Shown: one piece after another, positions 51,874 to 58,408 of the stretch | How positions within the stretch are numbered: the stretch's first letter is position 1 | How the letters are laid out: each line of letters starts with the position of its first letter | Assembly: GCA_030444405.1 (NCBI GenBank) | Contig: JARFPM010000002.1 | Span: 1-64,000 of the forward strand | Source: Nitrospira sp. | GTDB taxonomy: Bacteria; Nitrospirota; Nitrospiria; Nitrospirales; Nitrospiraceae | DNA: 64,000 nt | Direction: 5' to 3' | Translations under genes and position numbers: made by a program | Notes under the pieces: generated by a model | Seen by the model: only the letters and a program-made list of their open reading frames with translations | What the model was told of the DNA's origin: nothing | Databases searched by the model: none

Positions 51874-51956
51874 TGCTACTTCGTTGTTGACATGGCCCGT
51901 CATGCCGTGTAGTTTTCCTGAATCGTTTGAGCCTTGTCGCGTACATGGAGACACTT

Positions 51957-52832
51957 ATGCCCCGTCGGGGATCGTTCGTCTATGGAAGTCTGTTCCTTCT
52001 TATCGGCTTTACTGCCGTTGCGATCGCCGGTGACCCTCCCGACCCAGAAACGGCCATTCGTCAAATGGTCCGGGCCAATGCGGAAAAAGACCTTCCAACG
52101 CTTTCTCGCCTCATGGCCCACGACGCCGATATCGTCAGTTACTCGGTGGGTGGTCGCAAATACGTCGGCTGGCCAGAGTTTGAACGAGAAATGCGTGAAG
52201 AATTTGTCAATACTCAGAAGATTGAGATCCCGATTACTGAGCTCAAAGTCTGGACGAAGGGTGATTTGGCCTGGTTTACGATGGAGCTCGACTATACTCG
52301 CTACGTCGGCGAAGGATCCGGAGTGAAGCGGACGGTACTTCCCTTAAGAGAAACCGGTGTTCTCGAACGCCGTGCTGGGCGTTGGCAACTGTTGTCGTGG
52401 CACGAATCGTTCCGATCGGCTCAGCTTGGAGGGCCGCTTGCTTCGCCGTCAGCGGCAGCAGGATCGCAAAAGCTCGTCAGCAATGCTGCCGCCGCAATGC
52501 CAGATGTCAGCGGGGAATGGGATATTCTCGAAGTCGAGGACGAAAAACGCTACAAGGCGACGTTCGACAAGAATGGGAACGGCCCCTACACGCAACAGGG
52601 CGGACGGTTTATCACAACAAGAATTGAGAACCGACTATGGCAAGGCACCTGGCACCAGCCAGGCAACGATCGCGAGGGCGGGTTTGAGGTTCTCCTCTCG
52701 GAAGACGGTACGCAGGCAAAGGGAATCTGGTGGTACACACGAGTCGATACGAGAAAAAATATTCCGCCGAAGGAACACGGCGGCACCTACCACTGGAAGA
52801 AAGTGACACCATCACCGGCCAGCGCCCAATGA
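51957..52832 (+). CDS. Exported protein with an NTF2-like N-terminal domain
   Basis: The 291-residue product has a signal peptide (YGSLFLLIGFTAVAIAG). The N-terminal half is SnoaL/NTF2-like: AIRQMVRANAEKDLPTLSRL, GWPEFEREMREEF and GVLERRAGRWQLLSWHES. The C-terminal half is a different beta-rich domain (QGTWHQPGNDREGGFEVLLS). ATG 51957 has GGAGA at a good distance. It lies 80 bases before the PHM-like gene, and both are secreted. No reaction can be named. Confidence 0.72.
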   Translation: MPRRGSFVYGSLFLLIGFTAVAIAGDPPDPETAIRQMVRANAEKDLPTLSRLMAHDADIVSYSVGGRKYVGWPEFEREMREEFVNTQKIEIPITELKVWTKGDLAWFTMELDYTRYVGEGSGVKRTVLPLRETGVLERRAGRWQLLSWHESFRSAQLGGPLASPSAAAGSQKLVSNAAAAMPDVSGEWDILEVEDEKRYKATFDKNGNGPYTQQGGRFITTRIENRLWQGTWHQPGNDREGGFEVLLSEDGTQAKGIWWYTRVDTRKNIPPKEHGGTYHWKKVTPSPASAQ

Positions 52833-52912
52833 ACCAGCTTGTTTCTTCTCAGCCATACCAACAAATCGGAGTCCGGTCTCACATCACCGCTTCACTTCCT
52901 CTGGGAGGTCTT

Positions 52913-53917
52913 ATGCGCAGATCCCTCATTCTTTTCATCTCTCTCTTCTTCATGATCTCATCAGCCTACGCTGATGGAGGCCATGATCATCATGCCATCC
53001 CCACACTGAAAAAGCAGGTGGGCTCTAAGATCACCTACGGAGAGAACACGGCGACCCTGACATTCGGTCCTATCGACCTTCCGACCGGCCACGGTGAGGG
53101 CGATATGGGCGATTCCATGCCGCGGTTCTACTTCCAGTTGCCGGAAGACAAGTATTTGGTCGGTTTCAAGTCGGCCCTTTCTACGGTTGACGGGAAGGAA
53201 TTGCCGAGAAACTACTTGCACCATATTTTAATGATCAATAACAGCCAGCCCAGCATATCCTGCCCTGGAGAGCCGCTCTTCTTTGGAGGGGCCGGACTGG
53301 AAATGGCTGAGACCCAATTTCCCGATGGGTACGGTGTTAAACTCGCCAAAGATGATAAGCTCATGACGGTCGTCGCCTTCTATCATGGTGCCCCTCCCAC
53401 GAAAAATGTCATCGCAACCTTCACGATGTATTTCGCGCCGAAGGCTAAGCCGATCAAAGCAATGAACATCTATCAGGTAGGGGTCAACATCGTCTGTTTC
53501 ACTAAGTTCGGAGATCGTCCTGCAGATCAGACTGACGAAGGAATTGAAATCCGACATGGGGTCCAAGTTCACACAGCACCGCTCAAGTTCGGAGCAGACG
53601 GTTGCGTCAAATTTGCCTATCCTCATGGTCATGATGAATTACTGATGATCGCGTTGGAAAACAAGACCAAGAAACAGACCCTCCTCAGAACTGTGCCGGA
53701 TGTTGAGCGAGATGGAACCCTTCGTGAATTCTTACCCCACCAAGTCTATAGAGACGGCCAAGGATTCCCCATCTCCAAGGAGGATGACTATGAAATGGTG
53801 ATGGTGCACCATCACCCTCTCCAAAAAACCGAACTCCAGCATGGCATGGGCAATTACTTGCTGTACATGACTCCGGGGGCCTGCCCAGAGCAAGGCAAGA
53901 CCGCCGCGGCTTATTGA
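52913..53917 (+). CDS. Secreted PHM-like copper type II monooxygenase candidate
   Basis: The 334-residue product has a signal peptide (LILFISLFFMISSAYA) and then the His-rich start DGGHDHH. Candidate copper ligands come in the order known from peptidylglycine alpha-hydroxylating monooxygenase: His103-His104 (YLHHILMINN), His158 (VVAFYHGAP), His238-x-His240 (YPHGHDE) and Met312 (LQHGMGNYLL). The PHM order is HH, H, HxH, M with similar spacing. It may hydroxylate a small molecule or peptide outside the cytoplasm. GGGAGG before ATG 52913 decides the start. Overall similarity to PHM is otherwise weak by eye, so this is an inference. Confidence 0.6.
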   Translation: MRRSLILFISLFFMISSAYADGGHDHHAIPTLKKQVGSKITYGENTATLTFGPIDLPTGHGEGDMGDSMPRFYFQLPEDKYLVGFKSALSTVDGKELPRNYLHHILMINNSQPSISCPGEPLFFGGAGLEMAETQFPDGYGVKLAKDDKLMTVVAFYHGAPPTKNVIATFTMYFAPKAKPIKAMNIYQVGVNIVCFTKFGDRPADQTDEGIEIRHGVQVHTAPLKFGADGCVKFAYPHGHDELLMIALENKTKKQTLLRTVPDVERDGTLREFLPHQVYRDGQGFPISKEDDYEMVMVHHHPLQKTELQHGMGNYLLYMTPGACPEQGKTAAAY

Positions 53918-54214: not shown

Positions 54215-57200
54215 ATGCCGCAGAGTGAGCCAGTCACCATCCTCCTCGTCAATGCAATCGCCGAAGAAATCAAACTGGTTACGCTCAACTTCCGACGATT
54301 CTTTCCAAACTGCCGAGTCGAAGCCGTCTACACCGTAGAGGAAGCGCTTCAGTGGGGGCATCGGGCATCGTGGCACCTCATTTTAGTCGATGAGGAGTTG
54401 CTCCCGCAGCTCGCCGCGCCTGTCTTCTCAGAACTGAAGCAGCTTGCACCCCATGCCACGCTCGTGCTGCAGACGGGTCATAGCGAGTCCACCGCCGCCT
54501 TGGATGCTCTTCAGGCCGGGGCGGATTTTGTCCTCTACAAGAAGTCGCCCAGTTTTCTCACCGAACTGGTGTTGTACACAAAAGGCGCGCTCGAAACAGG
54601 CGCCATCCGCATGACACTCAAACAGACGCAGGATCGCCACGCCCGTCTCATTGATATGCTCAGCGATGGATTATACGAACTCGATGCGGAAGGACGATTC
54701 ATGCATCTGAGCCCGCTCGCCGCTGAAATGCTGGGCTACACGCAGGACGAGTTAATCGGCACCCCCTACTCTGCCCTCGTGCCTCTGGATCAACAGGATC
54801 GCGCTCGTCATCGTTTCAACGACCGCAGAACAGGGACGCGAGCGGCTCAACGGACAGAAATCGATCTCATCCGCAAACCATCCACCGACAAACGAGTCCA
54901 CGCCCGAGTGAGGGTCGAGCTCAGCGCGAGAGGGCTGTACGATTTTAATCGCCGGTATGTCGGAACGCTGGGTTTGTTGCGCGATCTATCCCGACACCGC
55001 CAGCAAACGAAGACAATTGCTCAGCTGGAACATCAACTTCGTGAATCCGATCGACTTCTCGCCATGGCACAACGCTTTTCAACCTTATCGAAAAGTCTGC
55101 ATGCCCCCCATAACGCGATGTACGCCCAATCCCAACTCCTGCTCAAAACCATCCACGACGCCCACCTGATCGAACAAGTAGATTCATTGGCAACGTACGC
55201 CGCTCAAGCCGCCCATCTGGGGAAAGAACTCGTCCAGACCACGACGGAAATCGTCCTCCGCCGAGACACCATCAACGACATCATCGAGTCCGTCCTGGCC
55301 GCCGCTCAACCTCCCCTTGCGAACACCGATTGGATTGAACGGGCGTATGGACGGGATCTTCCGCCTTTCACCGGAAACCTCGACTCCATGATGAACCTCC
55401 TGCGCATTCTCCTCTCACATGCCCGACGCTATGTGGCCGCTGTAGGCCCCCTCCATCGCTTACGAGTCAGTACTAGGGCAATCACCCAAGACGGAGCCTC
55501 CCTAGACCAAGAGACATCCTTGCTTCCACAAACAACGGCCGCCGAATTCGAGATTCACATCCAAGAGACAAACCTCCTCTCCCCGGCTCAGGAACCGCCC
55601 TTGCAGACAACCGACGATCTCTTTGTGGCCTACGCGTTGATCAAGCGACTCGGAGGCCGTTGGGATTTTCTGGCCCCCGTCGGCGGCTTTCTGTCGATCA
55701 AGGTGTGGATTCCGGTGGAACAACCTGCTGTGCTGGACAGTCGCGCTGTGCCGGTGACCCCACTCGTTTCTTCGACAGGCGGCGCGGTCGAACAGACTAC
55801 CGAGTCGATTCTTCAGACTACGGCGCATCCCTTACCGACCGGACCCCTTCCCTCCGTCCAATCAACGGAGCCTTTGCCTGACCGCCGCAGACATATTCGG
55901 GCGACCGTCGACCTACCAGCGCGCGTTACAATCGGCGATGCGCCGCAGGAAGGTGTCATGATTGATCTGAGTCTCAGCGGAGCCACTTTGGAGGTCGAAG
56001 GTGTGCTCCCGTCATTTGAACAACAGCCCGTCTACCTGCTCCTTAAGACAGCCCTCAGCATCTTGGAACTGGATGCCACCGCGCATGACCGAGGAGAAAC
56101 TCCCCGACGGGCCGGCATCGAACGGCGAACCTCCCGTCTTGCACTCGAGTTCACCGCACTCAACGAGAGCCAGCAGAAGATCCTCGCGTCGTTTATTGAG
56201 GCCGCACGAGTACATGCATCTGCCATAACAGTCGAAGCTCAGTTTCCGCCGCTCGATAAGACAGGTGAATTTGTAGTGCGAGGCACAGACTACCGCGAGA
56301 CCGTGAGATTTCGAGTTGCGCTGCCGGTCCGCATTGAAACTTCTAAAGCAGCGGGCGGAAGTCTGTTGGGCATTGCCGTCAACTTCAGCCGAGGCGGTGT
56401 ATGCGTGCAAACAGAGCCGTTCCTGCCAATGATCGATGAGGTAGTCGTGCTTCATTTCTCCTCGATCGACGTCCATGATCAGTCCAGGGCACAGAAGCCG
56501 GAAGCGCCCGAAGTGATTCTGACCGGCCGCGTTGTGCATCTTGCTCCCGATCCCACCGTTCCATCCAGGCTAACACCGGGTCTATCACAGCCTGGACAGC
56601 GCATCGGCATCCGTTTTTCCCACCTGACGCCGTTCGCGGAACGGCAAGTCAACCGCCTGCTTGGGCAACACATCGGCTCCTCCAAAGACTTTGCGGATCC
56701 AGACGGCCGGCCCTTAATCATGAGCGACAGATGGGAATGCCGGAATATGCACGGCCAGGCTATTGCGGTGACGGCCGATCATGCTCGCCATCTAATCTCA
56801 TCCGACACGCCGATCATCATCGTCATTCCCGGATTCGGATCGACTCAAACCGACTACGTATCGCTCTCATTTTACCTGGCTGCCAACCATTTGCGCGTGC
56901 TTCGCTATGACCACTCGAACCATGTCGGCCAAAGCGATGGCAGTATGCTGCAGGTCACGTTGCGCAACATGCAGGCTGATCTCCAGAGCATCCTGGACTT
57001 TGTTCACACTACATGGACCACCGCTCCCGTAGCTCTCCTCGCCGAAGACATTGCGGCGCGAGTGGCGGTGAAAGTCATGGCTCGGAGCACATCGGCCGAT
57101 AAGCTTTTCTTGTTGAATCCTGTTCTCGACATAGAAACCGCTCTTTCTACCATCGATCGCCCCAACGTCATTGAAGCCTACCGGCAAGGTCATCGGCGGG

Positions 57201-58408
57201 GCATTGCTAATCTCTGGGGACTCAATGTCAACTTCGACCAGTTTGTCGGCGATGCGATCACGGGAGACTATGTCGACTTGGCCTCGTCAAGAGCTGACTT
57301 CGCTCAAGTGGCCACTCCGCCTGTCATCCTGGTCTCTGCCAGAAGAATCCGTCCCCTTGAACCCATGTTCGGCCCTCAATATCAGTCCCTCAACACCATG
57401 AGACTCGCTCCAACTGTTGTATCGCTGCCGGCCGACGTGTCCGGAGAATCCGGCGCCTACGACGAGCGCCGTACCGCCGCCTTCAAGACGATCTTGAAAC
57501 TGATCTCAACTTCCCTGATCGGCAATTCTTCCTCGGCTCAGGTCCGCGAACCGAAACTACGTGATGTTTCTCAGCAACGGCAGTTGGAGCATGAGCGTAT
57601 CCGCATTCGCTGCCATGTCTCACAGGCCACACGCATCGCCTTGTGGGGAGCTCACTTGGCCCATCTACCTCAACTCGAAACCTTGCCGGACTATTCTGCT
57701 TTGACGAGTGAACTGTATCGCCGGCTCCTTCCGCTTGAACCAGGCATGACCGTCCTCGATATCGGCTGCGGCCAAAGAAACTTCGTCCGTCTCATGCTGA
57801 CCAATCAAGCCTATCGGTCGGCGCATCAAAGAGGACGGATGGCCGTTCCTCTCCGCTATGTGGGGTTGGACCAGTCGCTTGAATCGCTTAGACTTGCAAA
57901 ACTGCAGACCCTTACATTCGCTAAAGAACTGCCCGGCACACTCACGGCTGCCGTCCCAACCGCCCAGTCCGTAGCGACAAGCTGGGTGCACACGGACTGG
58001 AATGTACCTCTTCCTTTTATCGATGGATCGATGGAGCGCATTCTCTGCCATCTTTCGCTCTCCTTTACTTCTTCTCCCCTTCATTGTCTAAGGCAATTGC
58101 TCAGAATCTTGCATCCGGATGGGACGGCCGTCTTGACCTGTTTTCAACCGCACACCGATCTCTCAACGCTGTTTCGCCGTTACGTGCGCGCAGCAGACCA
58201 TGATGAATTCGGCACTCCGGCCCAAATCGTCCTTCACTATCTCGGCCGCCTGCGCGAAGCCATTCGGCATGGTTTATTGCATAACTATGAACGCGATGAG
58301 TTCGCCGGTCTGCTGGCTCGTGCCGGTGCGGGCCCAATCCAGTTTTTCTCCGTTCTCGACAACCAACTTCTACTCGCCCTTGTTCGGAAGACCAAATCCG
58401 CTGGATGA
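54215..58408 (+). CDS. Giant signalling fusion: REC-PAS-kinase remnant-PilZ-PilZ-LuxD-like-methyltransferase
   Basis: The 1397-residue protein has seven parts. A receiver-like domain (1-125) keeps Asp59 and Lys109/110 but lacks the acidic pair. A PAS domain follows (138-260), then a remnant of dimerisation and ATPase regions (265-500, ending AYALIKRLGGRWDFL) without N, G1 or His motifs. PilZ 1 has R558xxxR562 and D584xSxxG589; PilZ 2 has R694xxxR698 and N723xSxxG728, so both can bind c-di-GMP. Residues 862-1100 resemble LuxD-type acyl thioesterase (VIPGFGSTQTDY, RYDHSNHVGQSDGS), but AEDIAARV replaces the serine elbow. A methyltransferase (1165-1395, VLDIGCGQ) ends the chain. It may couple c-di-GMP to methylation. 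No signal peptide is seen. Confidence 0.85.
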   Translation: MPQSEPVTILLVNAIAEEIKLVTLNFRRFFPNCRVEAVYTVEEALQWGHRASWHLILVDEELLPQLAAPVFSELKQLAPHATLVLQTGHSESTAALDALQAGADFVLYKKSPSFLTELVLYTKGALETGAIRMTLKQTQDRHARLIDMLSDGLYELDAEGRFMHLSPLAAEMLGYTQDELIGTPYSALVPLDQQDRARHRFNDRRTGTRAAQRTEIDLIRKPSTDKRVHARVRVELSARGLYDFNRRYVGTLGLLRDLSRHRQQTKTIAQLEHQLRESDRLLAMAQRFSTLSKSLHAPHNAMYAQSQLLLKTIHDAHLIEQVDSLATYAAQAAHLGKELVQTTTEIVLRRDTINDIIESVLAAAQPPLANTDWIERAYGRDLPPFTGNLDSMMNLLRILLSHARRYVAAVGPLHRLRVSTRAITQDGASLDQETSLLPQTTAAEFEIHIQETNLLSPAQEPPLQTTDDLFVAYALIKRLGGRWDFLAPVGGFLSIKVWIPVEQPAVLDSRAVPVTPLVSSTGGAVEQTTESILQTTAHPLPTGPLPSVQSTEPLPDRRRHIRATVDLPARVTIGDAPQEGVMIDLSLSGATLEVEGVLPSFEQQPVYLLLKTALSILELDATAHDRGETPRRAGIERRTSRLALEFTALNESQQKILASFIEAARVHASAITVEAQFPPLDKTGEFVVRGTDYRETVRFRVALPVRIETSKAAGGSLLGIAVNFSRGGVCVQTEPFLPMIDEVVVLHFSSIDVHDQSRAQKPEAPEVILTGRVVHLAPDPTVPSRLTPGLSQPGQRIGIRFSHLTPFAERQVNRLLGQHIGSSKDFADPDGRPLIMSDRWECRNMHGQAIAVTADHARHLISSDTPIIIVIPGFGSTQTDYVSLSFYLAANHLRVLRYDHSNHVGQSDGSMLQVTLRNMQADLQSILDFVHTTWTTAPVALLAEDIAARVAVKVMARSTSADKLFLLNPVLDIETALSTIDRPNVIEAYRQGHRRGIANLWGLNVNFDQFVGDAITGDYVDLASSRADFAQVATPPVILVSARRIRPLEPMFGPQYQSLNTMRLAPTVVSLPADVSGESGAYDERRTAAFKTILKLISTSLIGNSSSAQVREPKLRDVSQQRQLEHERIRIRCHVSQATRIALWGAHLAHLPQLETLPDYSALTSELYRRLLPLEPGMTVLDIGCGQRNFVRLMLTNQAYRSAHQRGRMAVPLRYVGLDQSLESLRLAKLQTLTFAKELPGTLTAAVPTAQSVATSWVHTDWNVPLPFIDGSMERILCHLSLSFTSSPLHCLRQLLRILHPDGTAVLTCFQPHTDLSTLFRRYVRAADHDEFGTPAQIVLHYLGRLREAIRHGLLHNYERDEFAGLLARAGAGPIQFFSVLDNQLLLALVRKTKSAG

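Follow-up and report, generated by a model that had tools for sequence, protein, structure and literature searches.

We identified, in a Nitrospira genome, a gene for an exported protein of 334 residues that is probably a copper oxygenase, judging from its conserved metal-ligand pattern and predicted fold. The gene lies at 52,913–53,917 on the forward strand of the window, the 64,000-nucleotide stretch of DNA analysed; all window features given below are on this strand. Peptidylglycine alpha-hydroxylating monooxygenase (PHM) and dopamine beta-hydroxylase (DBH) are copper enzymes with which animals produce amidated hormones and noradrenaline. They have been studied in eukaryotes, and the electron route between their two distant coppers is debated. 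We favour, with somewhat more confidence than doubt, the reading that the Nitrospira protein is a dicopper monooxygenase of the PHM/DBH fold, which would act on a small substrate, draw electrons from a donor other than ascorbate and work with a SnoaL-domain partner. The computed support comprises an export signal, a fold match, ligand conservation, phylogenetic range and linkage to the SnoaL gene. An earlier note on this DNA had proposed a PHM-type copper monooxygenase. Conserved ligands and predicted fold support that proposal, whereas membership of PF01082/PF03712 by sequence is not supported.

The start of the gene was assigned to the ATG at 52,913. A GTG at 52,730 would give a longer frame but is probably not the true start: the ATG is favoured because a likely ribosome-binding site, GGGAGG (52,903–52,908), precedes it and because orthologues begin and align from the same position. 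Residues 1–20 (MRRSLILFISLFFMISSAYA, 52,913–52,972) form a predicted signal peptide with probable cleavage between AYA and DGG, and the protein is probably exported to the periplasm. The mature protein would begin with the His-rich stretch DGGHDHH (52,973–52,993), which is conserved among orthologues; H24 is retained in all but a few aligned members and H26 in most. The earlier description of a secreted protein with a His-rich mature N terminus is thereby upheld.

Translation of the gene places the six candidate ligands where they had been claimed (H103, H104, H158, H238, H240 and M312), with the claimed spacings of 54 (H104–H158), 80 (H158–H238) and 72 residues (H240–M312). H103–H104 (53,219–53,224) would correspond to PHM H107–H108 and H158 (53,384–53,386) to PHM H172, the third ligand of the CuH site. 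The putative CuM ligands are H238-x-H240 (53,624–53,632; PHM H242 and H244), at the end of strand 230–240, and the methionine M312 (53,846–53,848; PHM M314). Taken alone the order is suggestive at best, since the PHM pattern, with gaps loosened by 10–15 residues, also turned up in 96 of 20,000 shuffles (0.5%) that kept the composition of the protein. Conservation was more telling. Orthologues are encoded at 67 loci in the genome collection, and all six residues are identical in every one of these loci that covers them. Five of the six sites are invariant across 24 diverse members, down to 38% identity. H158 is present in 23 of the 24, the exception being genome G250 (locus L087), whose tandem pair has Asp in the second copy. 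All six are also present at the additional intact loci checked in other genera and families, so the possibility that orthologues lack these residues, raised earlier as grounds for refutation, was not borne out. Mean column identity in the 24-member alignment is 65%, with 57 of 334 columns invariant, and the chance that at least five of six given sites are invariant is about 7e-4. The family thus holds an ordered, conserved set of H,H,H for CuH and HxH,M for CuM, save for Asp158 in one tandem copy. Conservation and the predicted fold together therefore make the ligand pattern far more than chance.

Other positions are fixed as well. Cysteines C117, C195, C231 and C324 are equally invariant, as is Q277 (53,741–53,743), whose proposed equivalence to PHM Q272 comes from a motif. 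H300 (53,810–53,812) is invariant in intact members and has no assigned PHM counterpart; it could serve as an additional metal ligand or in catalysis.

An all-beta AlphaFold2 model of moderate confidence (mean pLDDT 72.9, pTM 0.75) was built from a shallow alignment of 19 sequences. Its top Foldseek matches were 24 PHM chains (E 1.8e-9 to 1.6e-7), the only strong family, followed by human DBH (E 2.5e-6). VIA-align likewise ranked PHM first (6ala_C, Z 16.4, 231 residues, 3.0 Å), with DBH 4zel_A at Z 15.5 (239 residues, 3.2 Å) and open PHM forms at about 14. By both comparisons the predicted structure has the PHM catalytic-core fold of two beta-sandwich domains. The BFVD viral structure library returned generic beta matches, none comparable to PHM. 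Alignment end pairs (residue 322 with PHM 324, residue 321 with DBH 496) put M312 on PHM M314 and on M487, the CuM methionine of DBH, provided that no gap intervenes. A fragment of residues 36–160, modelled alone to place H158, did not fold (pLDDT 38). The closest structural matches, 6ala_C (H108A-PHM with citrate) and 4zel_A (chain A of DBH), are closed conformers, and closed conformers bring the CuH and CuM sites near each other (PMC6123673). Because the best matches are closed, the model gives no sign of distant copper sites, and the structure comparison that had been called for thus points to a PHM/DBH fold with no hint of ligands far apart.

The next fold in VIA-align was PNGase F, at Z 8.6 or less. 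This glycosidase has the same two-sandwich fold, and 0.5% of shuffles reproduce the His/Met order, so we considered a metal-free beta-sandwich, such as a binding protein or a glycosidase resembling PNGase F, in which that order is coincidental. We regard this as very improbable: the scores of PHM and DBH are roughly double that of PNGase F, and the six residues are invariant barring H158 in one tandem copy. Membership of the PNGase F-fold glycosidases was rejected on the structural scores (Z ≤8.6 against 16.4 for PHM).

Sequence comparison by itself made no secure link to PHM. The protein, 18 aligned orthologues and four diverged members had no Pfam match at E up to 10, although rat PHM, as a positive control, matched both PF01082 and PF03712; the suggested membership of these families by sequence accordingly failed for all 19 orthologues and the four diverged members. 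NCBIfam, PHROGs and PDB sequence searches returned nothing for the 334-residue protein, and a PDB profile match to 9bwf (E 0.45) was discarded as chance. Nor did PF03712 turn up in Nitrospirota genomes, an absence that carries no weight because the control genomes gave no match either. Alignment by hhalign to PHM and DBH was weak (single-pair E 0.058, probability 0.9%), as was our own profile alignment (z 1.9 against column shuffles), and no significant sequence-level homology to PHM emerged from Pfam, NCBIfam, PDB, hhalign or our profile alignment. Both weak alignments pair H103–H104 with PHM H107–H108; support for the register thus differs by method, with M312 placed by the VIA-align end pairs and H103–H104 by weak profile alignment only. 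Likenesses are discernible by eye: LHHIL here against VHHML in PHM, FAY-x-HxH against FAY-xx-HxH, and GMGNYLLYM against EMCNLYIMYYM. P-x-G-x-G-x16-H is common to the two without a gap and supports pairing H158 with PHM H172. We do not file the protein in the PF01082/PF03712 family, because the defining sequence models fail; in view of its predicted fold and candidate ligands, its relationship to PHM and DBH is best called that of a divergent sister group.

The gene starts 80 bases downstream of a same-strand gene (51,927–52,832) for an exported SnoaL_3-domain protein (PF13474, E 8e-17). Surrounding gene order is conserved within Nitrospira, and in more distant loci the SnoaL gene alone stays. 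It neighbours the homologue both in Nitrospiraceae and at loci from families f2 and f7, lying directly upstream in L084, L085 and L108 and separated by one further reading frame in L061, L090 and L099 (in L061, a TPR protein). This retained linkage points to a shared task. No redox partner gene was linked to the PHM-fold gene in the loci examined. Downstream, 54,215–58,408 encodes a 1397-residue protein with, by eye, response-regulator/PAS, PilZ, alpha/beta-hydrolase-like and methyltransferase-like parts.

Some Nitrospira also carry a paralogue clade (support 100/99), which adjoins genes for chlorite dismutase, a Rieske oxygenase, a HalD-like oxygenase or a small metal-binding protein. Paralogue loci in some genomes of genus g1 are L088 (6608–7603), L089 (6796–7803), L096 (6170–7201) and L114 (4212–5195), and their neighbours in this genus include Rieske/VanA and HalD-like 2OG-Fe(II) genes. 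Second copies in G050, G091, G167 and G236 have an in-frame stop within the match. The two diverged tandem copies of G250 (L087, 6853–8954) follow a TonB-dependent receptor gene, and a DyP-type peroxidase is encoded nearby. A cupredoxin-domain gene (L086, 5420–5848) adjoins the homologue in family f3.

These surroundings bear on two further alternatives. A PHM-fold protein might store, deliver or sense one or two periplasmic coppers without oxygen chemistry, helped in binding them by its conserved His-rich N terminus. Cupredoxin (L086), TonB receptor (L087) and small metal-binding protein (L088) genes near single homologues agree with such copper handling, as does the resemblance of the model to the closed single-copper form that PHM lacking one copper can adopt (PMC6123673). 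We nevertheless judge this reading unlikely. Both full sites are invariant, including the Met typical of an O2-binding CuM, and a chaperone role is disfavoured because a chaperone would not need both complete sites; the conserved neighbour, moreover, is the SnoaL gene and not a copper-transport gene. Less probable still, in our estimation, is a copper enzyme of this fold that catalyses something other than O2-driven hydroxylation, say a peroxide-driven oxidation or a step that oxidises or reduces a nitrogen compound. In its favour are the ability of PHM to use H2O2 (PMC6123673), the core status of the gene among both nitrite and ammonia oxidisers, and the oxygenase and chlorite dismutase genes beside the paralogue clade; against it, the main copy has no linked nitrogen-cycle gene.

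In a profile search, 105 of the 110 genomes sampled from Nitrospiraceae, the family to which the window belongs, carried the gene, as did 6 of about 285 Nitrospirota genomes from outside it; the gene is core in this family and rare elsewhere in the phylum. The window's genome encodes AmoA. The nitrite oxidisers Nitrospira moscoviensis and N. defluvii also carry the gene; a link to ammonia oxidation was rejected on this ground, and the gene is core regardless of that trait. Relatives beyond Nitrospirota may exist, since the peptides with which the genome collection was scanned, once, were specific to Nitrospira. Plasmids and viral contigs yielded no relative. A decayed copy, split by stops, was seen in G326 of family f2 (L113, 1051–1828). 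Our literature search, which left preprints and most subscription journals outside its scope, found no work assigning the PHM/DBH enzyme class to Nitrospira. Databases contain uncharacterised bacterial members of this class, so the class counts as already known and the Nitrospira form as new.

For the favoured dicopper monooxygenase we propose the following mechanism. The electron-transfer copper (CuH) would sit in the N-terminal domain, bound by H103, H104 and H158, and the O2-activating copper (CuM) in the C-terminal domain, bound by H238, H240 and M312. CuH would pass an electron to CuM, each copper contributing one, and O2 bound at CuM would hydroxylate a C–H bond of a small substrate between the domains. 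Nothing found points to ascorbate as the donor; a periplasmic reductant or redox protein would supply the electrons instead, and the exported SnoaL-domain protein would act alongside, perhaps binding or processing the substrate or product. In PHM, R240 and Y318 serve the carboxylate of the peptide substrate. Motif alignment puts Y236 and L316 at these positions, so that the carboxylate residues are not kept, and F156 at that of Q170; N314 and Q277 are probable counterparts of PHM N316 and Q272. A peptidylglycine substrate is unlikely because R240, Y318 and Q170 are all replaced, and PHM proper, the peptidylglycine hydroxylase, was rejected as an identity for lack of R240 and Y318.

Whether these proteins make up a bacterial family of dicopper PHM-type monooxygenases that sequence libraries miss, exported as a core trait of Nitrospiraceae and hydroxylating a non-peptide metabolite with a non-ascorbate donor and a SnoaL partner, we consider evenly balanced. 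If true, comammox and nitrite-oxidising Nitrospira would have a core copper enzyme that has gone unrecognised; competition between comammox Nitrospira and other ammonia oxidisers is decided by copper availability (PMC13374858). The same six ligands without the peptide-binding residues would also offer an independent, simpler bacterial test system.

Among known systems, rat PHM (1PHM/1SDW/6ALA) shares with the Nitrospira protein the predicted fold, the two-domain layout and the six-ligand order, together with the HH-x-L strand start, P-x-G-x-G-x16-H and the M-x-N motif. C231–C324 may also match the PHM disulfide C227–C334. In contrast, identity over the structural alignment is about 12%, Pfam models miss the Nitrospira protein, R240, Y318, Q170 and most PHM disulfides are absent, and the bacterial protein has no PAL domain. 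Human DBH (4ZEL) has the same catalytic-core fold and ligands and, like the Nitrospira protein, lacks the PHM R240; the model resembles its closed chain A. It differs in its DOMON domain and dimerisation region, neither of which occurs here, and identity is 9%. PNGase F has two jelly-roll domains as well, but it is not a copper enzyme, is without copper sites and reaches half the Z-score of PHM.
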